From: Porphyra umbilicalis
Lineage: Eukaryota > Rhodophyta > Bangiophyceae > Bangiales > Bangiaceae
DNA: 64,000 bases
Assembly (NCBI GenBank): GCA_002049455.2
Contig: KV918766.1
Location: forward strand, 1 to 64,000
Direction: 5' to 3'
Shown: positions 2,297 through 49,622 of the stretch, piece after piece
Layout: the number at the start of each line of letters is the position of its first letter
Position numbering within the stretch: position 1 is the stretch's first letter
The notes under the pieces: model-generated
Told to the model about the DNA's origin: nothing
What the model saw: only the letters and a program-made list of their open reading frames with translations
Database searches by the model: none
Translations under genes and position numbers: made by a program

Positions 2297-3814
2297 AGGT
2301 GGGGGCGGGGGGCGGCCGCCCGACGGTGTGTATAGAGACAATAACGAGGAGGCGCTCGGCTGCTACTTCCTTTTCTTCACTTTCCTGTTCCTTGTTTTTG
2401 CGGCGGCCCCCTCTACCGACGAGACGCTCGGCTGCTACTGCCACCGATTTCCATGGCCGACCCCTCGTGTCGCGGTGGCTCGGCCGCGCGGCTGGCGCGT
2501 CGGTCGGTACCTGCCGTCCGCCGGCGCGCCCCCCCCACCCCCCCGCCCGGCACCCCCCCACCCGCTCCGACGGCAAGCGCCGGTAGCGGTAGCGTAGCGC
2601 GTCGACGTGCCGCCCAGCCCCCCCCCCCCCCCTCCCCCCCACCGCCGCCACCGCCCCCACGCGCCCCCACACGACGGCGGCGGCCGCGTGGCGCGCGCGC
2701 CCCCGCGCCCGGCCCGCGGCGGACCGCGCGTGCGTCGGCGCCGCCGACCGGCGCGCCCCCCCGCCCGCGCGTCACCGCGGCGCCGCCCGGCGCCGCCCGG
2801 CGCCGCGCCGCCGCCTCGGCGGGCGTGCGCCGCCCGCCGACGGTGCCGCCGCACGGCGGGCCGGGACGCGGCCGGCCCGACAGCGGCGGGGCTGGGGGCC
2901 CGCACGCACCCCCCCCCCACCCGGGTGGGTACCCTGCTGCGGTGGCAGGCGCGGCCGCGCGTGCCGTGCGGGGCGTGGCCGTTTGGCACGCGTGGAGGGG
3001 TGCAGCTATGAATAGAGTCACACCGATCCGTGACTCGTCCACGTGGCTGGCACGACGCAGTCCGGGCGCCCTGCCAACTCCTCCACGCGTCGCGCGATCA
3101 TCAGTGACGCTTCCCCGACGCGGGCGCGCCCCACGGGGCGCGGCGGAACCATGGCGCGCGTTGGGGCCGTGGACGCGCGCCCCGCCGTCCCCCCGCTTCC
3201 CCCTCTGCCGGCAGGATTTTTGGGTCCTCCAACGCCGACCGCTCCGTGCGCGGCGTGGCGCAGGGGGGGACCCCGCCAGTCCACGCTGACATGATTACCG
3301 GCGGGCGTCCGTGTCAGCCGTTTTTTGGGGGCGCCGGCGGCGGCGCTGCCCCCGCCGCCGCCGCCGCTGCCGCCACCGCCGCTACCGCCGCCGCCGCCGC
3401 CGCCGCCGCCGCCTCTGACGCCGCCACGCGCGCTCCCTGGTCGGCGGCGGCGACGGGGCCCCCGCGTGCCGCTGCCGCGCGCAACCGGCCGTGGGCGTGT
3501 GGGGCGGGGCGCCGGCGCGGGGCGCGCCGCCGGCGGGGGATGGCCGCCGCTCGGCCGCCCGCGCGGCCGCCGCCGACGCGGCGGCGGCGGCCGGCTGCCC
3601 GAGCGGCGGCGCCGGTCGCGCACGCCGCGTCGGCGTATACGCGGCGTGCCGCTGCCGCGGGTGGCCCTCGGCGTCGCGCCGCTGCGGCCCGTCAGAGGCT
3701 GCTGCGCAGGCCGCCCGCCCCCGCTCGCGCACCGCCGCAACGCCCGTCGCTGCGCGTGCCGCTGCTGCGCCTGCGCCGCCGCCCCCCCCCCTCCCCCCGC
3801 CCCCCCGCTCCCCA
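2297..3814. other. GC-rich intergenic region with CCG microsatellite
   Basis: No supported gene. It contains C-runs (around 2620-2660) and an interrupted CCG trinucleotide repeat at roughly 3345-3415. The region ends in a pyrimidine-rich C tract immediately before the ammonium transporter start and probably includes its promoter and 5' leader; no TATA box stands out. Confidence 0.45.
3346..3416. repeat. Interrupted (CCG)n microsatellite
   Basis: About 70 bp of nearly pure CCG repeats with a few CTG/CCA interruptions, upstream of the ammonium transporter gene. Confidence 0.7.
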
Positions 3815-6534: not shown

Positions 6535-7029
6535 TTTTACCACGGCGCGTCTGCCTACCCGGAAGGCACCCGCTCCCCGTGGGACGATAGTGCCGCTGGG
6601 TCGCCCCGCGTCGGCCAGTCGGCAGCGTCCTCGATTGCCGACGCCCTTAACGCCGACGACTTGGGCGCCGACAACGGCAAGGCCGTCGGCCCCGCCGCCG
6701 TCGACAACTCCTTCCTGCTCCGTCGCCGCCTGGGGTCAGGGGGTGCGCCTGACATTGAGATGCCGCAGGGGAAACCACCGTCGCCTGCGTTTCGCGACCC
6801 AACGAGCGGAGTGACAGACAGCCATGCGGTGCCTGGCGCGGCCGCCTCTGGGCAGCAACCCTTGTCGACGGTCGACGCTGACCACATTGTGGCGGTTTGT
6901 CCCGCCACCTCCGACAACACCTTCTTTCTTGACCGAACCGGTTCCGGCGACGGCTCGGCGGCAGAGTCGGCCGCGCCCGCCGAGCCGGTCGGCGTTGCGT
7001 CTCGGTGGATGAGTGGGGCGGCCGAGTAG
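6535..7029 (+). other. In-frame continuation of the ammonium transporter after TAG
   Basis: After the TAG at 6532-6534 the same frame stays open for 164 codons, to TAG 7027-7029. Its first residues are FYHGASAYPEGTRSPW; the HGxxAY motif directly after a GID-type motif is the conserved cytoplasmic C-terminus of AMT proteins. The rest is hydrophilic and rich in Ser, Ala, Asp and Gly, with two similar NSFLLRR/NTFFLDR blocks. Options are stop-codon readthrough, a CAG/AAG/TAC-to-TAG mutation or base error, or an unrecognised splice. I favour this being part of the original transporter tail. Confidence 0.6.
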
Positions 7030-8502
7030 CGCCCACAGCCTACGAGCGTGTCCGTGCGTAAGGATGGCGACGGTGCGTCGTCAGTGGCGGTGGTCACGGA
7101 CATCACCAACAAGGCGGAGTTGTAAGGCGGGCGACACCGTCACGGCGACTGCGGACCACATTGAGTGAGTCGATTGCTGACTGTTTACTGAGTGTGGGAG
7201 GAGGGGGGGGGGGGGGGGGTCGCGCGAGTCGAGAGGAGCGGACGCATACTGCTGCCCGCCGGCACGGCTCCGCCCGCTTCAATACACATTATCGTCTGTT
7301 TATGGTGCGTCCTATGTTGTCAGCGTCGTGGCGGCTGACCTGCGCACAACGCGGTCACCCAATGGGTGCCACTGTCGCCCAGCCGCCCACACAACCTTGG
7401 CCAAAGCGGCCCAGACGACCACAACGCCCGCCGCCGAGGCGGCGACCGCCGGCCCCACCGCCGCCGCCGCCGTCGCAGAGGCGGCGGCCGCGGCCGGCGC
7501 CGCCGTCGATGCGGCGTGGCGGGTGGACGGGGCTGCCGCCTCGCGCCGCCATGGTTGCCGGAAACCAAGACGCGGCGACCGCCGCTGTCGCCGCTACCCC
7601 GGCGGCGGCCGACGCGAGCGCCTCTATCCCGACGCTTGTCCCCATCGCGGCGACGGGCGCGGTCGGCGCCGCAAAGTCAGATGTGTCCAACCAAAAGTGC
7701 GCACTGGGGCACCGCCGACGACGCCAACATGGAGCCGTCGGGCACAGCGCCGGGCATCTCGGGCGCGCGACAGTGCGTGGGCGGCCGGCTTGTTGCCGAC
7801 CGGAACGTCCGCCGCCGTCGTTGGTCCCCGGACTGCCGGCACCACCTCGTCCGCGGTTTTGGTCTACCCGTCGCCCGTCCCCTCTGGCGCGACGCCCGCC
7901 GCCGTCGGCATGGGCTTGTTGCTAACAGTGACAACGTCGGGCAACGCGGTGCAGAGGTGGCGATAGCACAACGGCTGCCCCTACCGCAGCCGCTGTCTGT
8001 AGTGGCGGCCGTCGCTGCAGAGGCCGCCGGCACTGTCGACCCCGCCATCGCCATCGCCGCCGCCATCGCCCGAGTCCGACTCGAGGCCTGGCGGCGGCAT
8101 TTGCGGCTGTCTGCCCCGCCGGTCTGGACCCGCGCGGGGTGCTCTTTATCGGTGGCCAGCGGGTTAGCCTGCGCAGTGCTCACTAACGCCAGGCTCGTGA
8201 CAAGCCGGAAATTCTTGTCACGCACCACCGGATTCTCGCACAGTAGCCTGCTTGACACGTCCCCCTGGGTCAAAAACGAGGGTCGTCTGTCAAAACACAG
8301 AAAAAAGCTTGACAACCCCGCTGCCATGGGCTCTACGCCCACTTTTTCTTACCTCTTCTGATAGAGGACGTCAGTACGACCACGATAAGCGCGACACACG
8401 TGAACGCAACGCCACCAGTTCACCATCCCTTCCTCCCGCCGTTGTGGCTCCGCTCCATCGTCCTCCGCGCCCAAAAAACAATGAACTACCCAGCGGGAAC
8501 AC
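7030..8502. other. Intergenic region, no supported gene
   Basis: It holds an 18-20 nt G-run near 7201-7220 and Ala/Arg-rich open frames with no recognisable domain. The part around 8130-8470 is less GC-rich and has AT-rich words (for example near 8283-8310) that could serve as 3' sequences of the two convergent neighbours. I see no RNA gene. Confidence 0.4.
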
Positions 8503-11249
8503 TCAACCCAACCCACAAACGGCCTGCCGCTCACGCCGCAACAGCGCGGCGCATCGCCCCTCGCGTGCGGGCGCAAGCGCAACGCACCCCTGGCGAGGGA
8601 CCTCCCCCTTAGCGCCCGCCGGGACCCCCCCCCCCCCCCGCCTTGCCCCGCCGCTCCTCCCGCCCCACGCCGCGCATGCCGCGGGCGTAGGCCACCAAGC
8701 CCGTGGCGGCGACCCCCCCCCCACGTACACGAGCCACCCCAAGCCCGGCTCGGCGCTGGTGGCGGCAACGGCGGCGGCGACCCCCCCCCCCACGCCGACG
8801 ACGAGCGCATTGTTGGCGGCCATAATTTTGGTCTGCGCCCGCAGCAGCCGCTCCGTCTCGGTCGCGCGGGCGGGCACGCGGATGTCCCCCCGCTCCAACC
8901 GCGCGAGCGTCGCGTCCATGGCCGCAATGCGCGACGGCGCCGCCGCGGCGGCCGCCGACGTGTCCGCCGCCGCCTTTTGGGCGGTCGCCACCAGCACGTC
9001 CGCGCGGCCGCCGAGGAGGGAGCGGAGGACGCCGCGCAGGGCGGCGCCCGGGCCCGCCCGCGCCCCGTCGGCCGCGTCGAGGCGCGCGGTGACGCGCTTG
9101 CCGGCGCGCGCGAGGAGGTCGTCGGCAAACGGTTTGGCGACGGCGGAAAACTTAAAGTCGGGGTCGAGCGTCAGGTTGACGCCCTCCAACGTGGAAAAGG
9201 CGCGGAGCACAAACGTAAACGTGGCGGGGATGCGGAACGGCTGGTCATAGGCGACCGAGTAGAGGTCGTCGCCAATGGCGGCGACGGTTTGGTCCCGCTC
9301 GGGCCGCGCCGTGAGGTTGTCGAGGAAAAACTGGATGGAGCGCCGCACCGGCAGCGGGTCCGCCGGCGGCAGCAGTGCGCCGACGGCAATGAGCGCGTCC
9401 ATCACCGCGCCCGCGTCCTTTTCCACAATGCCAAAGAGGACGTCGACGAGGGACTCGCGCACGTTGGCGGGGAGCACCCCCACCATCCCCGCGTCGTACA
9501 GGTAGAGCGTCTCGCCCGGACCGACGGCCGTGTTGCCCGCGTGGGGGTCGGCGAGGAACAGGCCCGATGGGCCGAGGATTTGGCGAAGGTAACACTCGGC
9601 CGACCGCCGCGCAATGAGGGCCGTGTCCATACCCGCCGCGCGCAGGGCGGCCACGTCGCTAATCTTAATGCCGGGCAGGTACTGCATGGTGAGGACGCGC
9701 GTCGACGAGTAGTCGGGGTACGTCTTGGGCAGCCGCACCCAGGGGGTGTCGGCAAAGTCGGCGGCCAGCTGCGCGGCGTTGGCCGCCTCGAGCCGAAAGT
9801 CAATCTCCTCAAAGAGGACCTTGCGGCACTCGTCATAAACGCCTGTGGCGTGGCGGCAAAGAGCAGGACAGAACAACAGGTAATGGCAGGCGAGAGAGCA
9901 GGCCGAGGCACCAACAGACGTGCCGATGGGCGTCAGTCGTGAGCGCCATACGCACGCGCAGGCAATACCGCCCCCGCCCAACAGGAGGTGTTCCACCGCC
10001 AGGCACGACGTCACGCCCAGGTCAACGACCCCCTGCCCCCCCCCCCCCCCCCCCCCCCCCCCATCCCCCACCCAGGCGATACTCGCCCGCCCAACGTACC
10101 GACCCAGTCGCGCGAGTTCCCCCCATACTTTTTGCTCCGCTGCAGGTACTCGGCGACGCCCTTGAGCGCCGCCAAGTCCAACTCAAAGAGCGCCGCGAGG
10201 CGCGGCCGCTGCACCTTGACGACGACCTCCTCCCCCCCCCACAGGCGCGCGCGGTGGACTTGGCTGAGGCTCGCCGCCGCGAGGGGCACCGTGTCAAACC
10301 ACGCAAACAGCTCCCCGACGGGGGCCCCGAGCTCCGCCTCAATAATCCGCGCGGCGGCCGGGTAGCCAAAGCCCGGCACGCGGTCTTGGAGGAGGGACAG
10401 CTCCTCAACAACCTCGGGGGGGAGGAGGTCCCCGCGCGACGAGGCCAACTGGCCAACCTTGATAAACGTCGGGCCGAGCTGCAAGATGCTCTCCCGCACG
10501 TCCCGCCCGAGGCGCCGCCGGCGGCCGGCGACCGCCTCCTCCGTCATCCCGCCGGCCATGTACGTCCACCGCTGGCCGTCGAGCCAGTTGCGGCCGAGGA
10601 CCGAGCCGAGGAAGGACCAGGTGCCGACAAAGCGCGAGAGGCTATTGTAGCCGGCGCCGCGCGCCCACGCGTACTCGCGGACGAGGCTCGGCGGCACCGT
10701 GCGGTCGTCGTCGGCGGCGGCGGCCGTGTCGCCGCCGTCGCGCAAGCCGACGGCGGCGCCGTCGGCGGCAGCGTCTGGCCGCCCGCGGGCGGGGGGGCGG
10801 GGCGCGTAAAATTCGGCGCGCAGCCGCCCGCGGCGGGGGGGCGTCGGCGCCCCGATGTACCGCGCGTCCTTGTACCGCGTCGCCGTGGACGGGCGGGCGG
10901 GCCACCGCACGGGGGGGTGGGGGTGGGGGTGGGGGTGGGGGTCGCCGTCGGCAGACTTGCCGGGGGGGGGGGGTGCCGCCCGCCACCGCGGGGGGTCGGG
11001 GGGGGAGGGCGCCACCGCCGCCGGCGCCACGCGCGTCGCCGCCGACCGCCGCCCGCGGGTGCCGGTCGGCAGGCGGCGGGCGGGGACGGACGGCGGCAGC
11101 ACGCCGGGGGGGGGGGGAGAAAGGCCGCCATGGCCGCCGACCGCTGGGCGCGGGGGGAGAGGGAACGGCGGCGGGCGGCTGGCTGCACGGACTGACGCCG
11201 GGACGCGGCGGCGACGACCGTCGTCGGCGTCGGGGGTGGCGACGTGCAC
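8503..11249 (-). CDS. ABC1/UbiB-family atypical kinase (ABC1K), two exons
   Basis: ABC1K proteins are protein-kinase-like ATPases of plastids and mitochondria linked to prenylquinone metabolism. On the minus strand, exon 1 runs from 11249 to 10100, a 257-nt intron (10099-9843, donor GTACGT, acceptor CACAG, containing a 20-plus-nt C/G run) follows, and exon 2 runs from 9842. The family signature KxGQ is present (FIKVGQLASSR, about residue 262), then the Ala-rich loop (PLAAASLSQVHRA), the ATP lysine segment (VVVKVQRP), the EIDFRLEA helix, ADPHAGN (catalytic-loop equivalent, about residue 482) and DAGMVG (DFG equivalent). The roughly 120-residue Arg/Pro/Ala-rich N-terminus could be a plastid transit peptide. 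An ATG at 11131-11129 reading MAAFLPPPP in another frame is an attractive alternative start if the C-run beside it holds an indel. The C-terminus after WLVYVGGG also crosses a C/G run and may be misframed. Confidence 0.85.
9843..10099 (-). other. Intron of the ABC1K gene
   Basis: Minus-strand donor GTACGTTGG at 10099 and acceptor ending CACAG at 9843 join the codon halves G and GC, giving RDWVG-VYDECRK, which restores the conserved ABC1 core. The intron includes a C-run on the plus strand near 10038-10063. The coordinates are given in minus-strand order. Confidence 0.75.
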
Positions 11250-17339: not shown

Positions 17340-18912
17340 TATCCGTCTGACACCAGATAAGAACCCATGGCATCAGATAAGAACCAACTGTAAGGGTCGA
17401 TTCTTCACAGTGTTTACATACTAAGTGAGTTTCTGGATAATCAAACAGATGCCAACACTCAAACAGGAAGGCCCGTCTTCCCCCAAAGAAAAAATGGATT
17501 CTGTACTGAGACACATGAATGAAAAGAGCAGGTCTTCAGCTCGCCAACCATGTGATCAGCTTTTCCATACGCCATCGTCGTCGGCAGAGACGGGTTGCCG
17601 AGTGTTTTTGATGGGGTCTCTGTCCAGACGTTCCAACGGTCAATTTTTGGCTCAAATCGCCCTCTGCGACCCTGCCAAGCGTCCATTGCGCGCGCGGGCC
17701 AAAAATCTGACCAGGCAGAAAAGAACGATTCCCAGTCCTGAGCTCGTGTGTTGCACGTGGCGCGGCCCGAGCTACGGTAGTTCCACATGTCCATGTGAAG
17801 CGCACTTCCGGTGCAATGAGTACGCCAGATACAGCGGGGCATTCTTCATCACGTCGAGACGCTTCGGAGGCCATAAAGCAGTACATCCTCGTCGTCCCGG
17901 AAAGGCAATCCACATGGCTTCAAAGAAAAAACCTGGTCATACGACCCCGCTCAGGCCGATTTCAGAACCCAATGTGGGTCCACATGGCCAGAAATGGCTT
18001 TTGTGTCCCACCCCCAGTTAAGCTCCACTGCGCCGCGGGGGAGCTGTCAAAAGGAGCAGACCGAGTGGTGTCGGACGTTAACCTGGAGCTGTTGGTGTCA
18101 CGCCTCACCCCGGTGGTCCGCAAGAACCTGTCGTGCCCGACAATCGTGCAGGGAACGCTTTCGACAGCGGGACGAGCAACTGTTTTGACGGCGCCGGAGG
18201 TGCTGGCGGCTGTTCAGCAGCTTGACGCCGACAAGCTCAAGAATCAGCAGGACCTCGAGTTGGGTCGTCGGCAGAGGGAGGCGACGGTGGCAGCCAACAA
18301 GCCCAAAAAGGCCGAGCTGGCTGCAGCGCAGGAGCGCACGAAGTGGGCCAAGGTTTGGTGTCTGGTCAGTGAGGAGGCGGCCGAGGAGGGCCAGCACCGG
18401 CTGCACCGACTGTACCCGTCTCCCCGCAAGCTGGTCCTGCGGGAACGTGCCAACAAGCAGCGCAAGCTGTTTCATGTGCCCAACGCGGGTGATTGTCGCC
18501 AGCGTGGACTGCTGTGATCACGCCCTTGGTTCCTTTGTTCTTTTTTCTGTTCAAGCTGTGGTTGGATAGAATATTGCCAGGGTTTTCCAGGTTCTTGATT
18601 GGTGCAATAGGATTTACCCCCATAGACAGCTGACTCAATTCAGACGGTCACACATCAACACTGTGGTACAATTATCCGTCAACACTGCAGAACGCCTAGG
18701 TTTTCCCAGGATGCTTGATGGGTTGTTAACTGGTGTATACCCCGATACCGACCCACCTACCAACAAAAAGAGTGAAGCGTCCATTTTTTGTGGAAAAAAG
18801 ATGATGGAGGAGGGGAGGGTGAGCTAAGCCAAACGGTGTGCATCTCGAAGGAAGTGAACCTGTGGTTAATAAACGGGGACAGGATGGGTTCTTATCTGGT
18901 GTCAGACGGATA
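17340..18912 (+). mobile_element. TA-target TIR transposon, copy 1 (1573 bp)
   Basis: The ends are inverted repeats of 29 bp counting the flanking TA: 17340-17368 is the exact reverse complement of 18884-18912. The repeat begins TATCCGTCTGACACCAG, and a related subterminal copy of CAGATAAGAACC lies just inside. Flanking TA on both sides suggests a TA target duplication, as in the Tc1/mariner/pogo superfamily. An apparently identical copy lies at 22691-24263. The right end is 77 bp before the start of the glutathione peroxidase gene. It holds two overlapping plus-strand open frames, so it is probably an internally deleted derivative mobilised in trans. Confidence 0.85.
17795..18517 (+). CDS. 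Possible C-terminal transposase remnant (element copy 1)
   Basis: A 240-residue frame. Its second half runs LSTAGRATVLTAPEVLAAVQ and then a charged, probably helical stretch rich in Lys, Arg, Glu and Gln (ELGRRQREATVAANKPKKAE). Pogo/Jerky-type transposases often end with such a segment after the DDE domain, and the TA target fits that superfamily, but I see no DDE residues, so this is an inference. An overlapping frame (17425-18021, 198 residues) precedes it and may be the degraded upstream part. The identical sequence recurs at 23146-23868. Confidence 0.4.
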   Translation: MKRTSGAMSTPDTAGHSSSRRDASEAIKQYILVVPERQSTWLQRKNLVIRPRSGRFQNPMWVHMARNGFCVPPPVKLHCAAGELSKGADRVVSDVNLELLVSRLTPVVRKNLSCPTIVQGTLSTAGRATVLTAPEVLAAVQQLDADKLKNQQDLELGRRQREATVAANKPKKAELAAAQERTKWAKVWCLVSEEAAEEGQHRLHRLYPSPRKLVLRERANKQRKLFHVPNAGDCRQRGLL

Positions 18913-22690: not shown

Positions 22691-24263
22691 TATCCGTCTG
22701 ACACCAGATAAGAACCCATGGCATCAGATAAGAACCAACTGTAAGGGTCGATTCTTCACAGTGTTTACATACTAAGTGAGTTTCTGGATAATCAAACAGA
22801 TGCCAACACTCAAACAGGAAGGCCCGTCTTCCCCCAAAGAAAAAATGGATTCTGTACTGAGACACATGAATGAAAAGAGCAGGTCTTCAGCTCGCCAACC
22901 ATGTGATCAGCTTTTCCATACGCCATCGTCGTCGGCAGAGACGGGTTGCCGAGTGTTTTTGATGGGGTCTCTGTCCAGACGTTCCAACGGTCAATTTTTG
23001 GCTCAAATCGCCCTCTGCGACCCTGCCAAGCGTCCATTGCGCGCGCGGGCCAAAAATCTGACCAGGCAGAAAAGAACGATTCCCAGTCCTGAGCTCGTGT
23101 GTTGCACGTGGCGCGGCCCGAGCTACGGTAGTTCCACATGTCCATGTGAAGCGCACTTCCGGTGCAATGAGTACGCCAGATACAGCGGGGCATTCTTCAT
23201 CACGTCGAGACGCTTCGGAGGCCATAAAGCAGTACATCCTCGTCGTCCCGGAAAGGCAATCCACATGGCTTCAAAGAAAAAACCTGGTCATACGACCCCG
23301 CTCAGGCCGATTTCAGAACCCAATGTGGGTCCACATGGCCAGAAATGGCTTTTGTGTCCCACCCCCAGTTAAGCTCCACTGCGCCGCGGGGGAGCTGTCA
23401 AAAGGAGCAGACCGAGTGGTGTCGGACGTTAACCTGGAGCTGTTGGTGTCACGCCTCACCCCGGTGGTCCGCAAGAACCTGTCGTGCCCGACAATCGTGC
23501 AGGGAACGCTTTCGACAGCGGGACGAGCAACTGTTTTGACGGCGCCGGAGGTGCTGGCGGCTGTTCAGCAGCTTGACGCCGACAAGCTCAAGAATCAGCA
23601 GGACCTCGAGTTGGGTCGTCGGCAGAGGGAGGCGACGGTGGCAGCCAACAAGCCCAAAAAGGCCGAGCTGGCTGCAGCGCAGGAGCGCACGAAGTGGGCC
23701 AAGGTTTGGTGTCTGGTCAGTGAGGAGGCGGCCGAGGAGGGCCAGCACCGGCTGCACCGACTGTACCCGTCTCCCCGCAAGCTGGTCCTGCGGGAACGTG
23801 CCAACAAGCAGCGCAAGCTGTTTCATGTGCCCAACGCGGGTGATTGTCGCCAGCGTGGACTGCTGTGATCACGCCCTTGGTTCCTTTGTTCTTTTTTCTG
23901 TTCAAGCTGTGGTTGGATAGAATATTGCCAGGGTTTTCCAGGTTCTTGATTGGTGCAATAGGATTTACCCCCATAGACAGCTGACTCAATTCAGACGGTC
24001 ACACATCAACACTGTGGTACAATTATCCGTCAACACTGCAGAACGCCTAGGTTTTCCCAGGATGCTTGATGGGTTGTTAACTGGTGTATACCCCGATACC
24101 GACCCACCTACCAACAAAAAGAGTGAAGCGTCCATTTTTTGTGGAAAAAAGATGATGGAGGAGGGGAGGGTGAGCTAAGCCAAACGGTGTGCATCTCGAA
24201 GGAAGTGAACCTGTGGTTAATAAACGGGGACAGGATGGGTTCTTATCTGGTGTCAGACGGATA
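22691..24263 (+). mobile_element. TA-target TIR transposon, copy 2 (1573 bp)
   Basis: Same length, orientation and, as far as I can read, same sequence as 17340-18912 (constant offset 5351). It is flanked by CT-TA on the left and TA-ATTGGGG on the right, so it has different flanks and is an independent insertion rather than part of a larger duplication. The lack of visible divergence implies very recent movement or gene conversion. Confidence 0.87.
23146..23868 (+). CDS. Possible C-terminal transposase remnant (element copy 2)
   Basis: Identical 240-residue frame to that at 17795-18517, with the same charged C-terminal region and the same overlapping upstream frame (22776-23372). It is probably not a complete transposase. 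Confidence 0.4.
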   Translation: MKRTSGAMSTPDTAGHSSSRRDASEAIKQYILVVPERQSTWLQRKNLVIRPRSGRFQNPMWVHMARNGFCVPPPVKLHCAAGELSKGADRVVSDVNLELLVSRLTPVVRKNLSCPTIVQGTLSTAGRATVLTAPEVLAAVQQLDADKLKNQQDLELGRRQREATVAANKPKKAELAAAQERTKWAKVWCLVSEEAAEEGQHRLHRLYPSPRKLVLRERANKQRKLFHVPNAGDCRQRGLL

Positions 24264-31975: not shown

Positions 31976-33006
31976 TTTTTTTCTTTGATTACCTAGGGCA
32001 GGCTTCAGTTTGATTTCCGCGTGGTTTTAGTGTACTTGTGGAATTGACACGTGTTCAAGAAATCCATTACAATTTTCCTGTAGAATTCTCAGAAGGTCAC
32101 ACTTGTTCGTGTGCTTCGAAGCGAACGGACCGGCGGTGTCCATCGCGCGCCGTACGGACGCGACCACTCTGCGGTAGTCGTGGAACGCCTTGTGTGCTGC
32201 GGCGGCGATGCGTGGGAAAGTGCCGCCTCGGAGCACTGAGTGGAGCTGTGCAGGGGGCCCCGTGGGGCACCGCCTACGGTGAAAGAGGGGCAGTAGTAGA
32301 GATGGGTTTCTTGATTGCCAGATGTGGACTAGTCACCGGGGGCAGACGAGAGAAAAATGTAATGGGGACGGTGGAGTCACGGTCAGGGAGATGGCCGCCG
32401 CGGCCGCCGCCGCACGCGCGGGTCAGCGTCGGGTGACACACAGACAGGGTGTGCAAGGCGGGGCGTGGCGGCCGGCCACGGCCGCGTCGCGCCGCCATGT
32501 GGCTGCACTGACCGTGACTCCGCGCCGTGCGGGAGTGTGGCCACCTACACCTACGGTAACGTGTGCGGTGGTGGTGCCGCGCTCTTCGTCAAGCGGCACG
32601 ACGCCCGGTGGCCGCTCGCCCTCAGGCGTCGCGTCGCCGTGTGTGGCGGTCGTGCCCTCTGCACCCCCCTCTCGCCCGGTGCTCAATCCCGCCCCCCCCC
32701 CCCCCCTGCACCCTGAATGGCGCTGCATCCGCGGCGGAGCCGCCGCCGTCGCTGCCGCCATCACCGCCACTGTGGCGGCTGCCGGCACCGCCGTGCGGCG
32801 GCGGCGGCGGCGCGGGGCACGGCACGAGTCGCGTCGGGTGGCGGGCGGTCGGGCGTCGGCAGTCCCGGCATGTCTGGTGGTTTTTGCTTCTCTGTGACAC
32901 TTGCCTTGCCTCGGCCTTTTGGGGTTGCATGCTCCGAGGTGCTCATTGCGCTTCGCGCCTTCTTTAAAGGGGGGGGGCCGGCGGTGCCGTGGAGTGCGAT
33001 CGACTT
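31949..33006 (+). repeat. 1058-bp duplicated segment, copy 1
   Basis: It recurs at 45393-46450 in the same orientation (constant offset 13444). I could see only two substitutions (32150 C versus 45594 T; 32456 A versus 45900 G). It contains an AT-richer first part and a GC-rich part with a C-run (32693-32706). It ends inside open frames leading towards the JmjC gene, so it may be that gene's upstream region. Short open frames in it are not convincing. Confidence 0.85.
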
Positions 33007-33429
33007 GATCGTGGCAGTGTTGGCGGTGGGCAGAGTGGCGCTGATGATGATCAAGCACGCCGTAGTGGTGGTCGGTCTGACGATGGCCGAGATGGTGGCC
33101 GTGCCGGTCAAGGTGGAGGTACATGTGATGCGCGTCGTGGTACAGGCGGTGGGCGTGGTGCACAAGATGATCACGGGGGCCGCGCCCTTTGTCTGTCTGG
33201 TGCTAGTCGTCGAGATGCAGGCGTTCGCGCAAGTGAGGACAGCTGCGGTGATGATGGTGCCCGAGTTGTGCACCATGTTGGCGTGGGAGGGGGTCAGCTT
33301 CACTCTGATGGCAGGGGTTTTGTTCGTGCCGATGTGGGGCACGGCATTCGCCAAGTCGTTGATCTCAAAGATTGCGCGGCTACAGCCGCGGCCGAAGCGC
33401 TCTCTGACACCCGTGCTGGACATCGAAGC

Positions 33430-35397
33430 ATGGGCACCACCGCAGGACACAAAGGCCGTAGCGTGCAGCGCTCAAAGCGACGCCCGAGCGGGGATGGTCG
33501 AGGGTGCTTGAAAGACGCACTCTCTGACCAGCTACCCGCTGGTGACAGCACAGCCGCTCCACAAGCGGATGGCGCTCGTCAGGAACCGCGACGCTTGCAA
33601 CACGAGGACCCTGTCGTGGAGACGCGGGCTGCCGCGCCAATGGCCCTGGGCTTTCACCCAATTCCTATTACCTGCTTAAGTACCGTACAGGAACTCGGAC
33701 TGCATGGTTTGATTCGATCGCAGGCAGCGTCGATCCGTACATTTGGTGCACACGTGTTCCGAATAGTAACACCTGATATTCGACCTGTGCCATCTCTAGC
33801 GCCCCAGCGAAAGGTTGGGGTGAAGGTCCGGGTGCGGGTTCAGACTTTCCCGCAATACCCAACTATTGTCAGCGAGTCCTTCGCTGGCAGTGCAGAGCCA
33901 GACCCTGCTATCAAGCGCGACGGGCTCCAAGCACAGGTGCCGCCTGAACGGGAGATGATGCTATCGACTGCTGTTATCAAAAGAAGGATGCGCGAGAGCA
34001 CAACCGCTCTTCGCGCCCGATACAAGGGCTTCGGTGTACCGCAGTTCCTTCAGAACGTGAATGATCTGAGGGTCACCTGGGTGAGAGGTGTGACATCAAG
34101 CGGCCACGAGACAAGAGCCCTGAGTCCCGCAAAGCCTAATCCAATAGACGTGTACTACGTTTCGGACATGACTCCAGCCAATGAGGATGGGTGTGGCAGG
34201 AGCCTGAGTGACAGTGCCTGTGCAGCTGAACCGGAGCCCTTGCTGTCCAGTGAACGATTCCACAACCCTCGTACGCTGAACCACCACAGCATGTTAGGCG
34301 CATGTGCCACATACGAGGGTATCAACACTAGTCTGCTATACATGGGAAGCGCCGGCTCGCACTTCAGCTGGCATGTTGAAGACCATCTCCTTCAGTCGGT
34401 CTCCTACCTGCAGTCCGGAGCGAGTAAGTTCTGGTTTTTCGTTCCGAGATCTGAAGTCCCCAAGATGGTACGCGTCATGAGTGAATGCATGGACCCTGTC
34501 GTGCTGAAGGCAGCAGGAGGAGATGTGTGGAAGCTTCTCGCTGAAAAGGCCGTCTTGTGGCCGGCGTCGTTTTTCCTCGCCCACGGCATTCGCGTCGGCT
34601 TCCATGAAATGAAAGCAGGGGACTTCGTCGTCACGGGCTATGGTGTTCCGCACAGCGGCTTCAACGCAGGGACCAACGTAGCATCTGCAGTGAATATTGC
34701 GTGCACTGGCTGGCTTGTGCACGCGATTGAACACGCGGCCCAATGGCGTGGAAAGATTGGTATGCTGATTCCTTTCGAGAAGCTGCTGGTTCTTAGCGCT
34801 CTGAAGCTGGCTGATGGGAAGTGGTGGTGTGGTGACGCGCGATCCTACGAGGAATGCGACCCAGCAGAGTTCCAAAGAGACCTGAAAGTCATGACGTCCT
34901 ACTTGAAGGAGTACCTGGATTGCGTCCTGGAGTACATGAGTCGCAACTCGCACCCGGCGTGGAAGGGGAAGAAGCCAACTGTGCTGGACTTGCAAGCGGC
35001 CCCCCAGGGTGTTCAGCAGTTCTTCCGTGACAACGCGATTAAACCAGCGGGTAAACCCTTGGTACTCCCGAACGAGAACGAGGGAACCGCTACAGACTAC
35101 TCTGTCGACGGTGCGGCGTGTCCTCACTGTGGAATGGTCGTCTGGCTATCTGTAGTCGTGTTTCCGGCCTGCATTGAGCAGCTGGGAGATGGAGCAGGAC
35201 CTAGAGCGCCTATCTGTTGCTGGCGATGCGCGCCAGCCATGTACGACGACTTGCACTACAGGCCCGAGCAGGCCGACGGGAAGCAGCCGCTCCTAGTCGG
35301 ATGTCACTCTCCTTCGGTGGTGCAGCGGCTGTCCAATGGCCGCGCCTACTTGCTAGCGGATAAGTTGAAGAGAGTTGGGGCAGAGAGAGGTGACTAG
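33430..35397 (+). CDS. JmjN-JmjC 2-oxoglutarate/Fe(II) oxygenase, KDM5-like histone demethylase
   Basis: JmjC enzymes demethylate histone lysines in chromatin with Fe(II) and 2-oxoglutarate. From ATG 33430 (655 residues) I see a basic, NLS-like start (RSVQRSKRRPSGDG), a JmjN-like block (FHPIPITCLSTVQELG to RIVTPDIRPVP, residues about 73-120), a JmjC domain (HFSWHVEDHLLQSVSYLQSG to GYGVPHSGFNAGTNVASAVN) and a C-terminal Cys-rich segment (CPHCGMVVWLSVVV, CCWRC, residues about 564-600) like a partly degenerate C5HC2 finger. The iron ligands are His315, Glu317 and His408. Order and HVEDH/HSGFN motifs match KDM5/KDM4. The gene is intronless, much less GC-rich than host genes, and convergent with the transposase gene (433 bp between stops). 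Start uncertain: the frame is open back to 32989 inside the duplicated segment, and ATG 33640 also precedes JmjN. It may travel with the transposon. Confidence 0.82.
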   Translation: MGTTAGHKGRSVQRSKRRPSGDGRGCLKDALSDQLPAGDSTAAPQADGARQEPRRLQHEDPVVETRAAAPMALGFHPIPITCLSTVQELGLHGLIRSQAASIRTFGAHVFRIVTPDIRPVPSLAPQRKVGVKVRVRVQTFPQYPTIVSESFAGSAEPDPAIKRDGLQAQVPPEREMMLSTAVIKRRMRESTTALRARYKGFGVPQFLQNVNDLRVTWVRGVTSSGHETRALSPAKPNPIDVYYVSDMTPANEDGCGRSLSDSACAAEPEPLLSSERFHNPRTLNHHSMLGACATYEGINTSLLYMGSAGSHFSWHVEDHLLQSVSYLQSGASKFWFFVPRSEVPKMVRVMSECMDPVVLKAAGGDVWKLLAEKAVLWPASFFLAHGIRVGFHEMKAGDFVVTGYGVPHSGFNAGTNVASAVNIACTGWLVHAIEHAAQWRGKIGMLIPFEKLLVLSALKLADGKWWCGDARSYEECDPAEFQRDLKVMTSYLKEYLDCVLEYMSRNSHPAWKGKKPTVLDLQAAPQGVQQFFRDNAIKPAGKPLVLPNENEGTATDYSVDGAACPHCGMVVWLSVVVFPACIEQLGDGAGPRAPICCWRCAPAMYDDLHYRPEQADGKQPLLVGCHSPSVVQRLSNGRAYLLADKLKRVGAERGD

Positions 35398-35830
35398 ATC
35401 AGCAGCGTTTTGGTTGTTTCTGAGGTTCGGTCTTCTGGAATGAGTATGAGTTTGTTTGCGGCGACATGACGCGCGGAGGGTACCTTCGTGACGTATGCTG
35501 TATTTCTTTGATTCATTGGAATGTTTTGAAACGAGCACTCTCCAGACAAAGGTGCTATGGGTGGGAGCGCCTCAATCCGTGCTTTCTGCCCCGCCATTCA
35601 CGTAGCATTGGCATGGCTCGCGATCCACGAACTATCCCCACAATCCAAACTACAGCGTACAAGTTACGACGTCGGAAACAGGCTATGGCAAGAGTGCCCA
35701 TAGTGCAAAGACAGCATATTAGTGCAAGGACAGCATATTACCAAGTGAGGCGGACAGGTGTTAAGCATGCGCTGAACGCACTACTCTATCTACTGTGTGC
35801 ATGCTCTGCGAAAGATACATGTAGCTTCCC

Positions 35831-38800
35831 TCAACCACTCTTAAAATGAAAGCCCGACTTCTTGGTGAACAGAACGTTGTGCGTACAGCAAGGGAGAACA
35901 AAAGCAGACTGCTTCACCCGCTCAGCGCGCACGAGAGACACACTGGGTGTAGAATCAAGTGTGACCACCGCAGGTTTCCCCACGATGGATAAGGCCAAAT
36001 CCGACACTTTCCACGCTTCACACTCGAGGTGTAGCTCTTCCGCTATAGTGCCGATTGCTCGGACCCGACAGAATTGGAATCTCTGCACTCCTGTGGCACC
36101 GGAGTCGCTCACTCCGTCAGATGGCCCTCCGTCTTGGAGCACTGACACTGTCGACCCCTCTCGAATGAGGAATGATCTCTGCGGGTTCCTGGCTCTCCTC
36201 CAGAACTTGATGAGCGCGTTCGGTGCATGAGCCCTCCAGAGCTCCTCTGTCGAGACAGAGACGGTTCTCAGTGCTTCCTTGCCTCGCCAATCTCCGACGA
36301 TGGTAGATGCCAACCGCCGCTGCGGAGCGAGTCTGTGGAACGAGACGGCCTTCAACGGATTTCCGGCCAGGCCAAGCAGCCACGACGGAGGGATGCCATG
36401 CTCCTCTGGCATGGAGAGCGCCCTTGAGTACTGCTCTGTGTCTCTTCACCTCTGCATTGAGTACTCCGCTGCGTTTCGATGGTTACTCTGGCTGACCTCG
36501 CGCTTCGCCATCTGATGGAAGTTCTCAAATATCAGCTCGCATATTGCTGAGCCGAGCTGCACCAACGGTAACGTACGATAAAGAAGCTCGAGCAGGCGAT
36601 GGACAGACGGTCGCTCCCATTTTCCATTGAATGGTAGCAGGCGACGTAGCTCAATCATGAGGCTTTCGCCGAGACGTTGCAGCTCCACGACAGTTGGCCG
36701 CTCCCTTACGGCCTGCTCTCCGTCGGACGAAAGCGTAGGCCTATAAAATAGAGCAGTAGAAAACTGTCGTAGGGCCTTCAGTGCGCGAAGCGTAGTAACC
36801 GCATGTGTACAGGTAGTTGGAGTGTGCACACCATACTCCAAGACCGTGGGACTCACGGTAAGCAGCACGGCGTAGTCGGACATGGAAAGCGTTGTGCCAC
36901 CCATTTTTTCAGGCTCAAAGGAGGAAAGTACCGTGTGTTTCGGAACATGTTTTGCACTGCGGCGCATTTCCACCACGAACTTGTCACGCTGCTCAACAGA
37001 GAGTGACTCGTACGCTTCCATCAGTAGGTTGGATCCAATGTTGTAGTACAGAAGATGAGATGGAGCAACAATCACATGTTCGTGTATGTCAAACGTCCCT
37101 GGACCTCGAGCATCAGTCAGGCGCATCATCAGGCTACCTGACTTGTCCGTAACGCCGTTTAGGAGGAGTGCGTCTTTCAAAGCTTCGGCAGACAACTGGG
37201 TAGAAGTCTTCAGTGCGGACATGATGGCAGCTGTTCTCTCTTGCACTCTGGAGTATCGGGTGTCTTTGACATCAAAAGAAGCGGTGCTGCTCATAGCGCG
37301 CTCCTTCCTCTCACTCCTGGTCTTCGGGTGGACAATGTCGCAGCTGGTGCAGTGCTCAGTTCCAGGAGCTCCTACAGAGTTGGAGAACTTGGCAGCCATA
37401 GGAAAATCAAACACGCCGATGCACAAGAATACCTGCACCACGACGTTCTCCTTCGAGTACGCGTCATAGACAGCAACACCTTCTTTGCTCATTTGGAGCA
37501 TGTCCTCCACGACACGTCTCAGTAGAGCGTCAGGGTTTGCCCCAGGAGGCAAGTAGAAGAGTGGACGTACGGAGAAGGCACGGTCATCCAAGCTCAGAGA
37601 CGTGTACGCACCGTAGTACCCCTCTAAGCTCCCACGGCGTCGCTTGTACACGCTAAACTCATCACCGTACAATGAGACGTACAGAGTGTGTGGGTCTTTC
37701 TCCTTCAGCCCATCTTGGGCTTTCTCAGCCACTTGGTCCAGCTCGATCGGCTTCACTGCCGTCAAGAGGGACCACGAGTCCTTCTGGCGCTCGGACGAGC
37801 TGCGCGCGGCACTAACAAACACGCCTCCTGACCTCGTGAACCTCAAAGTGAGCCTGCAATCGTCTTGGAAGCACGACGCCCACGGCTCAGGAGGCTCAAA
37901 CTCATTAAGGACCTCAAACAGCCCCAGCAAGTCCCCAACTCGGAGAGTGCTCTGGGGAGCGTACGATGACTCTGAGATAGAGACGTCGCCGTCGGATGCA
38001 ATCGCTGTACTTTCCAATCGGGCCTGAAACCTTGTGTTGTCATCCAAGGAGACAGAGACAATGCATCCGATACCGTACATGTATCGATCTCTGAAAAAGC
38101 CGTTCTTGAAGTTGAAACGAGCCGGATCCCTGGCCGCCACTGTCTGAAAGAACTCTACAGGGCGCTCAACAGTCCCGGCGCGTGCATCCCCTTCGCGATG
38201 GAACAGAGCCGCTGTCACTGGGTCCCCAAAGTCCCTCTTTATGTGCACAGAGAACGGAATGTAGGACACAGTAACGTCAGGCAGCTTGCGGAGGGTCTTT
38301 CCTTTGCCAACGGGTAGCTGCCTCGTCGTCACCTCGCGTCTCAGCGGTATTGCGGAGTTCAACATTTTCTTTCGCATCTGTTGTAAGCGCCACCTCGACG
38401 GCCACCTCTCCTTGGGGCTGAATGAGTTCTCTGCCTCGCGCATGATGTCGTACTGCCGGAGTGTGAGACGAGCTCGTCCAAAGAGGTAGCCAAAGCACAG
38501 GAATTCCCGGCGAGAAGCAAACTGTCCAGGTGGTCGTTCTTCTTCACTGGAGATGTCTGTATCGTCCGAGGGACATCCATCAGGCTCAGAGTCTGAGGAC
38601 ATGACTACATCGTGGTAGACCTCCGCAGCGGCAGTGTGTGACGGCGTTTCTCCCAACGTGCTCGGGTTCTCCGTCACACAGATGCTTCCAGACTCCTCTA
38701 TGGTCATAGCTCTCGAACCTGTTGTACACGTGGCCCGTTGCGACTGAAAATGCCGGAGGTCTCCATCGGCAAGATCGAAGAACGCGGTGCCTCGAGGTCC

Positions 38801-38833
38801 ACGCCTGCGACGCTTCATCGTTTCGTTATGCAC
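35831..38833 (-). pseudogene. TNP2/CACTA-type transposase, interrupted by one in-frame TGA
   Basis: The minus-strand frame runs 795 codons from ATG 38833 to TGA 36448-36446, and then continues in the same frame for another 204 codons to 35831. The start is basic (MKRRRRGPRG). An acidic Ser-rich linker follows, then a transposase-like core: YVSLYGDEFSVYKRRRG (residues about 384-400), PLFYLPPGANPDALLRRVVE, MSKEGVAVYDAYSKE (about 450), CIGVFDFPMAAKFSN and GAPGTEHCTSCDIVHP (about 493). The sequence of a Gly-leu/val-x-Asp segment, an aspartate/proline strand and a CxxC motif is as in TNP2 transposases of CACTA/EnSpm elements. FENFHQMAKREVSQSNHR ends just before the TGA and is the family's helical E-containing segment. 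One point change could give the TGA (for example CGA to TGA). It could also be read through. Lower GC than host, intronless. Confidence 0.72.
36446..36448 (-). other. In-frame TGA inside the transposase frame
   Basis: Coding-strand context is ATG CAG AGG TGA AGA GAC. Translation before (AAEYSMQR) and after (RDTEQYSRALSMPEEHG) is continuous in one frame, so only this codon separates 795 upstream from 204 downstream codons. Confidence 0.8.
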
Positions 38834-39990
38834 TGTCTTTTTGACACGCTCACAACACGCAGAAGCGCAGTTCGGATCCCAGTAACAGGCACTTCAACGT
38901 ATAGCATATCAACCGTATTCGCAGGGAGGCGCTCACGGGGCGTGCCTGTGGACGCTGCGACGTAAGACAAAGGCGTCAACAAATTCGAGAGCGCAGTCTG
39001 AGATGCCGCCTGTGGGCCAGGAATGGTGCCGGAAGCCGAGATGCCAGCTTGAGTGACTGGCACTCAACCCGACCGATGACAGAGGGGGGAGTCCCAAGCA
39101 GAATCGATACGGATCAGACCGGTGGAAGGACGATAGGACGCTCGCTACTGTGCCAAGTACGAACAGAAGCCGAGCAAACAGGTCTCCACGCACTTCGGCT
39201 GTACAGTCTTTCTCCATTCTTGTCGCTTCCGTTCTTGTCCAGGGGGGGATAGCAACGAACGCGGTCGACCGGCCTCTACGGTACAATCAACAGCGATCGT
39301 GGCTCCCAATCATCGTCTTCTGCACGAAAAATGTGGGCTACTTTCTGGTCGTACGATCGCCATAGAGGGTGGACAGCATTGGAGAAAGACTGTACTGTGG
39401 CATGACAAGAGCCCAACACCGCTTAGCCGCGTGGGCTACATGCTCGCAAGAATCTAATTCGTCTCTATGCATAGAATCCTGAAGCTGGCCCCCTCCTTGA
39501 GCCGAACGAACCATCCGTGCAGCGTCCTACATCTTCGAGCGACGGACGATCGCAGAACTGGAACGTGCGCCGATCTCTAAAACAAGCGACAGAAAAATCT
39601 CTCAGACAATCCCAAAGATAGTCTGCTGCTCTGCTCTTCGATTGTTCCCACGGACTATCCACCGTGCAGTCCGCCTCTGATCCCAGGTCAGTTCGTAGGA
39701 TTATCCCGGTGAACAAGACAGAAGTCGCCCGAGAAGAGTTCTCTGCATTTTCCAAGAGAAAGAACCTATACCAATCCTGTGATGATTGTGGCGTGATATT
39801 GGGATCGTCCGTCGAACAATTCTAGGGACTCCTTCGTATCGATCCGTCGATCGCTGTGGGATAATTCAGCGGATAGTTCCAACCTGTGTGCGGGATTGAC
39901 CTGGCTGCACGAAAAGGACTGTCCTGTGGAAACCTCTGCAGACAGTCTCATTTAGGGGCCAGGATTAAATAAGGAAGAGGTCGCAAATCG
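38834..39990. other. Lower-GC flank of the transposase gene
   Basis: No gene supported. This side holds the transposase promoter and perhaps an element end. Short words such as GGACTRT, GATAGT and GGATTATCC recur (39640-39900), reminiscent of CACTA subterminal repeats. Composition returns to very GC-rich at about 39990-40020, a likely element boundary, but I found no matching inverted end on the JmjC side. Confidence 0.4.
39262..39401. repeat. Dispersed repeat fragment (copy also at 24346-24483)
   Basis: Shares GTCGACCGGCCTCTACGG, ATCAAC, GCGATCGT and GGAGAAAGACTGTAC, in order, with 24346-24483. Here it is within the flank of the transposase gene, which supports mobile-element origin for both. 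Confidence 0.6.
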
Positions 39991-39999
39991 CTGTGATAC

Positions 40000-47096: not shown

Positions 47097-48905
47097 ATTC
47101 CAGGCACGTGCGTGCCATACCCTGGCCTTCAGGGCGGTGGCGCGCTCGGCGACGCATTGACACCGGGCACGCCGGCCGGCTCTATGGCCGCGAGCGCGCA
47201 CGGCACAGTGGGGCTTAGACCATGTACCTGGAAGATCTTGTATCTGCTTGAATACAATTGGATACAAGCTGATACAAGCATCGATTTCTTGTACGGATCG
47301 GGTGCTTTTCGTACAAAGTTTTTGTATGGCGCTTGCACGACGCTTGCTCGGAGTGCACCGAATCGTTGCATGAACCTTGCACGGTGCCGTGCAGATTGTC
47401 TGTATCTGGTTGCACGGCGGTCGTACAGGCGCTACATGCAGCTCGTTTGACTCGCTTCTCAATAGAGAAGAGTCAAGCTGCGGCTTCCAGGGGCAGTGCC
47501 CGTCCACAGAGACTGCGCCACAGCAGTCCTAACCCACCTCGCTGCCCATCAGGGCAGTCTACGCAGGGTATACAAGATGTCAAGCATCCAACCCCAGACC
47601 ACCACCCCCCAACGAAAGTACTGGTGTACCAATGCGATGGGGTGCTTCTTGCATCTTTGGAGACGACAGAGACAAGCTTCCGATCATCTGAGGGGCGTGG
47701 ATGTGACCCGTTCGGCCTGGGTGGCGTGGGGCTACGATGCTGCCGTTTTTGACAGCACGAGTGTTACGGATGCGGGGGGGGTGAAGGTGCGGGGAGGGTA
47801 GGGTAGTGCATGTTACTGGGGTGAATATCAATAGGGCAGGTGTCCTGGTCGGGAGCATTACCAGCTGTGACGAGCACAGAGAAAAGCAGACACTGCCAGG
47901 TGATGCAAGGAATGTCCACTTTGGTGCAAGAGGACAGCACCCGGTGCAAGATCTCTGCGCGAATCCGCACAGATCTCGTGCAAGCTGCTTGCACGAAAGC
48001 AGTGTCCCAGATACAAATTTCTGGATGCAAGAAACACGTTTGTGGCCGCCATCGGTGCACAAAACGACGGACAGGGCTCGTTTTTTATAGACTCACATGC
48101 ACCTCTTCTGCGGTGCGAACGGTGCAAAAATGGGCTCTGGGCACCGTTTTGCGCGCCCAGGAGCCCCCCTTTGTACGGCACTTGTACGAGAAAACGGCCC
48201 TCAGAGGGTCGGAATCGACACCTTGCACCAACCGGTGCAAGCCAGATACAAGCAAATTCAAGGCCTTCCAGGTACCTGGTCTAAGATCTACTGTGCGGGG
48301 GCACGTATAGCCACGTTGCCGTGGTGGGGGGGGCGTCGGGCGGGGAAAGGGGTGCCGCCTCCGCCACCGCAGCGGCGGCGGCCCGCCGGCGTCGCGCGGC
48401 GCCCACGGGCGAGGCCGTCACTCCGCCACGCAGCGCACCTGCGCATGGCGGGCATGGCGGCCGACACGGCGCACGGGCAGGCGGGTGGGACTGATCGCCG
48501 CGCGACGAGGCGCCTGTAACCGCGCCGCTAGATGGCGTCAGCGACCGCCGACGCGCCGCCGCAATAGAAGACGGCGCGCAGGCACGATCACCCGCGGGTC
48601 ATCGTGGGCACGTCAAGCCCCGGAAGTCGCTGCGCGCGGTCACCGCGCGCAACTCTGGGCGGTAGAGGGGGCACGGGGCAGGCGCCGTCCGGGCCCAGTG
48701 ACCCCTATGGCAGGGCAATCCTTCTCAGCCACGTAACTCCATTCGCTTTTAGCGTCATCGCGACCCTTCCAACACTGACACGCCCTCAGATCCCTGAGGA
48801 CACGAATGCAGACTGCCACCTCTGAAACGGAGAGCAAGTCCCGTGATCTAAGTATATGTGTGCATCACTACACTTTGAGAGCACCCTGTCTTACAGGCCA
48901 GGGAA
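47097..48905. repeat. Tandem ~715-bp unit A, split by an insertion
   Basis: 47097-47203 plus 48299-48905 aligns with unit B (48906-49622): it starts ATTCCAGGCAC, runs through CCTGGCCTTCAGGGCGGTGG and GCCGGCCGGCTC, and ends with a GAGAGCACCCTGTC...CAGGGAA segment. The units differ by scattered substitutions, so the duplication is not recent. Open frames in it are Arg/Ala-rich and unconvincing. Confidence 0.8.
47204..48295. mobile_element. CACTA-like non-autonomous element (1092 bp) in unit A
   Basis: Ends are imperfect inverted repeats of about 47 bp: CACAGTGGGGCTTAGACC... at the left, and the right end read in reverse begins CACAGTAGATCTTAGACC... Both share GGTACCTGGAAG or GTACCTGGAAG and GCTTG. 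It is flanked by CGG on both sides (47201-47203, 48296-48298), a 3-bp target duplication as in CACTA/EnSpm elements, confirmed by the uninserted sequence in unit B (around 49009-49014). Inside both ends are many TACAAGC/TTGCAC/GCTTGTAT words, like CACTA subterminal repeats. The centre has no transposase. A TNP2-type transposase such as that at 35.8-38.8 kb could mobilise it in trans (inference). Confidence 0.8.
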
Positions 48906-49622
48906 ATTCCAGGCACATCCGTGCAATACCCTGGCCTTCAGGGCGGTGGCGCGCTCGGCGACGCATCGACACCGGGCATGCCGGCCGGCTCCATAGCCGC
49001 GAGCACGCACGGGGGCACGCACAGCCACGCTGCCGTGGCGGGGAGAATGTGGGGCGGGGAAAGGGATGCCGCCGCCGCCTCCGCAGCGGCGGCGGCCCGC
49101 CGGCGTCACGCAACGCCCACAGGCGGGGCGTCACTCCGCCGCGCAGCCCACCTGCGCACGGCGGGCAGGGAGGCCGACACGGCGCACGGGCAGGCGGGTG
49201 GGACTGATCGCCGCGCGATGGGGCGCATCCAACCGCGCCGCTAGGTGGCGTCAGCAACCGCCGACGCGCCGCCGCAACAGAAGACGGCGCGCAGGCACGA
49301 TCACCCGCGGGTCATCGTGGGCGCATCGAACCCCGGGAGTCGCTGCGCGCGGTCGCCGCGCGCAACTCGGGGCGGTGGGGGGGGGCAGAGGGGCAGACGC
49401 CGTCCGGGCCCGGTGGCCCTTGTGGCAGGAGAGTCCTTCTCAGCCACGTAACTTTATTCGCTTTTTAGCGTCATCGCGACCCTTCCAACGCTGACACGCC
49501 CTCAGATCCCTGAGGACACGTATGCAAACTGCCACCTCTGAAACGGAGATCAAGTTCCATTATCTAAGTATATGTGTGCATCACTACACTTTGAGAGCAC
49601 CCTGTCCTAAAGGACAGGGAAT
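48906..49622. repeat. Tandem ~715-bp unit B, uninterrupted
   Basis: Carries the intact site CGCACGGGGGCACGC corresponding to the insertion point in unit A. GC-rich first two thirds and a milder last 180 bp (from the TTCTCAGCCACGTAACT words). Confidence 0.8.

Follow-up and report, generated by a model that had tools for sequence, protein, structure and literature searches.

Background

According to the accessible portions of the articles cited here, several transposons carry proteins that act, or are thought to act, against silencing. In fungi, TET is carried by DNA transposons of several kinds, EnSpm, Plavaka and KDZ elements among them (Kojima 2025, PMC12730594). The element described below resembles these TET-positive transposons in being a DNA transposon, of the EnSpm superfamily as some of them are, with a 2-oxoglutarate/Fe(II) dioxygenase thought to be anti-silencing, and it differs from them in its enzyme: theirs is a TET/JBP protein that acts on DNA bases, whereas the red-algal element has a JmjC domain of the KDM4/KDM5 kind (PMC12730594, in part). 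Target duplications are 3 bp in the fungal EnSpm elements versus 2 bp here, and the word JmjC is absent from the accessible part of that article. Maize Spm/En, of the CACTA superfamily, encodes TnpA, which was reported to activate a methylated promoter (PMC10398659, PMC1636069). Spm/En is likened to the present element by description, not by sequence: both are CACTA elements with a second protein, but no JmjC is reported for Spm/En in the accessible parts of these sources. VANDAL elements likewise encode an anti-silencing protein, VANC, and contain noncoding tandem repeats, but VANC is described as a sequence-specific binding protein (PMC10398659). Animal CACTA elements of the SmTRC1 type share Transposase_21 and 2-bp duplications (there in 7 of 14 copies), but the accessible part of PMC1636069 reports no JmjC for them.

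What is already known is thus the 2-oxoglutarate-dioxygenase transposon of fungi (TET/JBP, EnSpm among them); what is new is the JmjC enzyme and its occurrence in a red alga. A search of the open-access literature, covering titles and the beginnings of abstracts, returned no JmjC-encoding DNA transposon. The reading that we favour, and consider rather probable by analogy with the systems above, is a two-gene CACTA element whose ORF1 is most likely a self-encoded histone demethylase that would keep the element unsilenced.

The element copy in the window

The window, i.e., the whole 64-kb stretch of DNA analyzed (C6:1-64000), holds a 5'-truncated copy of a CACTA-type element at 32998..39995, delimited by its identity to the copy on contig C8 (99.7% over 32998-39204 and 100% over 39390-39995). 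Leftward of 32998, the C8 copy goes on with sequence that the window copy lacks. The gene pair in the window represents the 3' portion of a red-algal DNA transposon belonging to the CACTA superfamily. The sequence-only reading had described two convergent intronless genes sharing a moderate GC content; both were located as claimed, each as one open frame, and the GC fraction was 0.53-0.60 over 33-40 kb versus as much as 0.87 in other parts of the window.

The remnant of ORF1, the 3' part of the JmjC protein gene, occupies 32998..35397 on the + strand, in a frame open from 32989 (802 aa). It contains a remnant of a Gly/Arg-coding minisatellite (33011..33268, +; 78-89% match to several units of the C8 copy, ~174 bp each), the JmjC domain (34336..34695, +; residues 450-569 of the frame 32989-35397; Pfam PF02373, 71.9 bits with a cut-off of 24, E 2.1e-18), and a Cys-rich tail (35119..35229, +), defined by an alignment of 28 copies. 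The iron ligands of the domain (H-x-E and the distal H) are present, as had been noted, and one cysteine of the tail that is kept in most other copies of that alignment is changed.

On the - strand, the ORF2 transposase runs for 795 codons up to an early stop (36446..38833). The frame matches Pfam Transposase_21/TNP2 (E 2e-8; PF02992 match at 37310..37546, -, 36.6 bits with a cut-off of 28.6), which bears out its earlier description as TNP2-like. The near-identical C8 copy has its transposase in a single, undivided frame of 1020 codons, so the separate frame at 35831..36412 (-, 193 aa) is the C-terminal part of the window transposase, beyond its early stop. The 433-bp gap previously given between the two genes stands as the distance from 35397 to 35831, but 35831 is the edge of this C-terminal frame and not of the frame 36446-38833. 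An insertion of ~185 bp (39205..39389), without counterpart in the C8 copy, lies beside the 6-bp direct repeat CTGTAC and is perhaps a small nonautonomous element. The right end of the element (39979..39995, -) reads CACAGCGATTTGCGACC inward, the same as in all 25 right ends aligned, apart from small variants. The window copy is truncated and partly broken, with its left part gone, an early transposase stop, a tail cysteine lost and an insertion; unbroken copies are present elsewhere in the genome.

Genome-wide pairing of the two genes

The 83.8-Mb assembly (665 contigs) was searched with both proteins of the window. Phycobilisome linker domains were found on seven of its contigs in addition to C665, the presumed plastid, which points most likely to a red alga; the high GC content would fit one resembling Porphyra. 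The JmjC gene is not single-copy: the JmjC protein had at least 59 matching stretches in the genome and the transposase at least 60, and the Pfam JmjC profile gave 105 matches genome-wide, all above the cut-off. The best-scored candidates were taken as match places (56 of 180 for the JmjC protein, 57 of 293 for the transposase, and 58 of 250 for the second-family search described below). Among the best 56 of 180 JmjC places, 43 had a transposase place within 6 kb (chance, ~0.8%), and 42 of the pairs were convergent. Conversely, 51 of the best 57 of 293 transposase places had a Pfam JmjC match within 6 kb, and all 51 were convergent.

The genome was also searched with the Transposase_21 profile; 150 of 176 candidates were scored, resulting in 136 matches, many of them below the curated cut-off. 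By the part of the profile matched, these fell into 69 matches of this element's type and 67 others. Among the matches listed, 60 of the 69 were within 6 kb of a JmjC match (60/60 convergent), and as an internal control none of the 67 others had JmjC within this distance. That this convergent arrangement recurs at dozens of loci rules out coincidence. A host gene that merely happens to lie beside a transposon was considered and rejected on the 60/69 versus 0/67 pairing together with the target duplications (see below), and the proposal of a transposon bearing its own JmjC gene is supported.

The 67 other matches, with profile starts below 60, make up a distinct, repetitive set of CACTA-type transposases. 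With JmjC-carrying and 67 JmjC-free Transposase_21 matches, the same genome offers a comparison of both within one nucleus.

A second JmjC family was represented by C212 and C164; the C212 protein was 35% identical to the window JmjC protein over 578 aa. In both, the JmjC gene and a transposase sharing 49% identity with that of the window are convergent (Pfam Transposase_21 E 0.042, below the cut-off), and this transposase contributed at least 10 further convergent JmjC pairs. The second family is an old one, laid out in the same way as the first. No transposase was found within the 6 kb fetched around C173, the third member of the family inspected. Downstream of the C173 gene (2327-5398 of the fetched locus) are frames that, by eye, resemble those of a retrotransposon, with a zinc knuckle and a reverse transcriptase-like part.

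In total, at least 75 of the 105 JmjC matches adjoin a transposase of the two element families, and JmjC gene counts in such genomes may therefore be inflated by transposons. Among the 30 JmjC domains without a paired transposase, four were inspected closely (C263, C30, C344, and C173); the first three look like host genes.

Termini, target duplications and superfamily

Six copies with differing flanks all stop at the position equivalent to 39995 of the window. By copy comparison and pattern searches, full copies were found to start with 5'-CAC[T/C]GTGTGTTGG[A/T]ATGAAGTTCCAGA and to end with GGTCGCAAATCGC[T/G]GTG-3', the last bases being CGC[T/G]GTG-3'. Altogether 24 left and 25 right ends were aligned, of which those of C2/C266 and C32/C259 are not independent because they have common flanks. 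CAC[T/C]GTG was present at the left in the 24 ends aligned (one with an added base), and, disregarding TCTG/TATG variants, 24 of the 25 right ends had GTG. Two candidate features were discarded: long terminal inverted repeats, since the right-end 17-mer occurs once each in C8, C15 and C27 and is absent from their left ends, and a left boundary at AATAAGGAAG, where C27 has an insertion.

Paired left and right ends delimit 12 elements of 11.5-36.7 kb, all but one below 24 kb (full copies mostly 11.5-23 kb), and inside them JmjC was found in 12/12 and Transposase_21 in 11/12 (the exception is C124). A matching 2-bp target duplication flanked 10 of the 12, all but C27 and C114, while mismatched pairings of flanks agreed in 6 of 132 cases. 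The two genes thus co-occur within common outer boundaries, as the sequence-only reading had proposed to check.

These boundaries bear on whether two neighbouring host genes were simply copied together by segmental duplication, with no transposon involved. Long similar stretches occur in some copies (C16 versus C391, 6.9 kb at 99%), and C2/C266 and C32/C259 have the common flanks mentioned above. In other copies, however, unrelated sequence adjoins ends that are exactly the same, and 2-bp duplications are present in 10 of 12; segmental duplication is refuted for the bounded copies, and overall its probability is negligible.

The CACTA/EnSpm (CMCT) group is characterized by CAC..GTG termini, Transposase_21 and a target duplication of 2-5 bp (accessible part of PMC12730594). 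The CAC..GTG termini, short target duplications and Transposase_21 of the present element place it in this group. The CMCT motif order is D, D, C(2)C, H(3-4)H, E; with residues assigned by eye, D, D, C(2)C and E were present in 8 of 8 copies and H(3)H in 6 of 8, and in the second-family transposase Y replaces the first H of the H(3-4)H motif (also by eye).

The JmjC protein could, alternatively, alter chromatin at target sites and so steer insertion or excision rather than guard the element's own expression. The same layout evidence would fit, and insertion duplicates only two bases; the flanks aligned at the element ends, on the other hand, showed no plain target-sequence preference, and we consider such steering improbable.

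Anatomy of full-length copies and domain content of ORF1

The C15 element (15,206 bp) consists, in order, of the left end, ~3.1 kb without an obvious gene, ~200-bp tandem repeats (3106-3746), ORF1 (3760-10929, a single frame of 2390 codons stop to stop), the ORF2 transposase (1010 codons), convergent to ORF1, and the right end. In C16, the ORF1 frame has 2570 codons stop to stop, and in C27 it is split. The encoded proteins are ~2,370 aa (C15) and ~2,560 aa (C16), so that the full-length JmjC protein is about three times as long as the window version. Its layout is an N-terminal domain, Gly/Arg-rich repeats, a conserved region, JmjC, and the Cys-rich tail.

The N-terminal part (~680 aa in the C15, C16 and C8 copies; 33% identity between C15 and C16) matched nothing of weight in Pfam or PDB and may be a novel domain or a highly diverged relative of a known one. 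A dead Ulp1-like protease, suspected there only because of the shape of a motif, found no support and was discarded. The Gly/Arg/Asp-rich region derives from coding minisatellites with periods of ~174-432 bp. GC-rich tandem repeats of ~197-200 bp lie directly upstream of ORF1 (C8 locus 1-863; C15 3106-3746) and are a possible binding or control region.

Pfam JmjC was found in 18 of 18 copies; Pfam assigned JmjC rather than TET/JBP to the window frame and the 18 copies. Pfam matched no ARID or PHD domain in either the window frame or the two ORF1 N-terminal parts scanned. The JmjN domain that had been read into the window protein was not borne out: Pfam detected it in none of the 18 copies, and a JmjN search of the whole genome, allowing E values up to 10, returned only C263 and, weakly, C30, both host-like genes. 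As for the C5HC2-like tail, the Cys-rich tail after JmjC is real and conserved in the 28-copy alignment, but its assignment to C5HC2 is not confirmed: zf-C5HC2 appeared in only 2 of 18 copies (E ≥ 1.2), and other zinc-ribbon families were weak too (best zf-ChsH2, E 0.012, 5/18). The NCBIfam search gave nothing, and a search for viral relatives yielded 13 pattern matches, none confirmed.

Conservation and selection

Residue conservation was assessed in 28 copies, i.e., the first 8 loci of the JmjC-protein search and 20 hand-chosen from its list. H-x-E and the distal H were all intact in 24 of them (C24 and C13 lack the E, C98 and C142 the distal H), and Lys in 26 (lost in C60 and C301). A further alignment (A1) comprised 18 of the 20 copies that had been preselected by a motif including HVED, and the invariance of those residues there is uninformative.

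Between subfamilies, dN/dS was 0.115-0.186 for JmjC (13 pairs, dS 0.38-2.08) and 0.086-0.152 for the transposase (5 pairs, dS 0.57-2.24). The JmjC part is under purifying selection across element subfamilies, and its low values, close to those of the transposase, indicate that JmjC is being maintained within the element. Close pairs gave 0.365-1.87 for JmjC (6 pairs) and 0.27 and 0.63 for the transposase, which is weak evidence given the few changes; the Gly/Arg part gave 0.82-1.07 (3 close pairs).

A host gene captured once and carried as a passenger, without use to the element, would agree with the existence of the related host gene C344 (see below). It is hard to reconcile with the between-subfamily dN/dS of JmjC, close to that of the transposase, and with the presence of JmjC in a second deep family, and we hold it to be very improbable.

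Relatives of the element JmjC

The nearest solved relatives of the element JmjC are JMJ13, JMJ14, KDM5 and KDM4, all histone demethylases, so the JmjC domain of ORF1 most likely demethylates histones. In a tree of 18 JmjC cores, the 11 element sequences formed one clade (100/98). Host C344 was sister to it (96/95), a link that is provisional given the long branches. KDM4D was joined by host C30, and JMJ14 and KDM5C were joined by host C263, both groups lying apart from the element clade (long branches). JmjN is present in the KDM4 and KDM5 families. The identification as a KDM5-like protein with JmjN is not supported in view of the 0/18 JmjN result, the genome-wide JmjN search and the tree, in which the element JmjC is separate from the KDM5-like host gene C263. 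Two of the conditions that had been named as refuting the transposon reading, a single-copy JmjC gene and its clustering with the host KDM5 gene, therefore fail.

In C344 (3311-6673), JmjC, linker and Cys tail are colinear with the element protein over 333 aa at 30% identity. The gene lies in DNA of 0.77 GC and, unlike the element gene, is not repeated beside a transposase; JmjN was not detected in it. From this similarity, C344 could be the donor of the element gene or a domesticated descendant of it.

Some JmjC proteins are not histone demethylases, and ORF1 might be an accessory to transposition, with a JmjC domain that hydroxylates the transposase or some other protein, or that simply folds and binds, rather than demethylating histones. 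The failure to detect JmjN in the 18 copies and in the genome search, the very long additional N-terminal and Gly/Arg parts, and the loss of iron ligands in 4 of 28 copies would all suit such a role. It is, on the other hand, at odds with the iron and 2-oxoglutarate residues being mostly kept under purifying selection and with histone demethylases being the nearest solved relatives; we regard it as unlikely, though worth keeping in view.

Proposed function of ORF1

In the favoured reading, that of a self-encoded histone demethylase, ORF1, as the second protein of the element, would correspond in function to the TnpA protein of maize Spm, an activator of its own methylated promoter. The N-terminal part of ORF1, together with the Gly/Arg repeats, would anchor the protein to element DNA or RNA; the ~200-bp tandem repeats just upstream of ORF1 are a possible tethering site, this targeting being a guess. 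The JmjC domain would then strip a repressive histone methyl mark at the element, and with the mark removed both element genes would stay expressed. By analogy with TnpA, VANC and the TET-carrying transposons, the likeliest use of such a protein is in protecting the element from silencing. We counted in favour of this reading the gene pairing, common ends, dN/dS, ligand conservation, second family, solved relatives and precedents, and against it the lack of a detected JmjN, the iron ligands broken in 4 of 28 copies, and the close-copy dN/dS of 0.365-1.87.

More tentatively, the element may represent an undescribed strategy in which DNA transposons use their own JmjC histone demethylase, inside a second protein of ~2,400-2,600 aa, to erase repressive marks on their own copies. 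Targeting would be subfamily-specific, conferred by the variable Gly/Arg repeats or by the tandem array ahead of ORF1, as with VANC and its repeats in VANDAL, and C344 would either have supplied the element gene or have been domesticated from it. VANDAL transposases belong to a different group from those of CACTA. Known elements resist silencing with proteins of the TnpA/VANC type, or with TET/JBP in fungi; a transposon lineage maintaining a JmjC enzyme would show that there is also a direct contest over histone marks, and in a red alga.

Other repeats near the element

Outside the element, 48296-49621 and 47097-47203 of the window resemble, at 86-92% similarity, a portion of the sequence that flanks the C15 element on its left, and constitute a dispersed repeat. 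The stretches 17771-18035 and 23122-23386 of the window, ~5.35 kb apart, were matched at identical coordinates in the flank of the C15 locus and form a within-window repeat.
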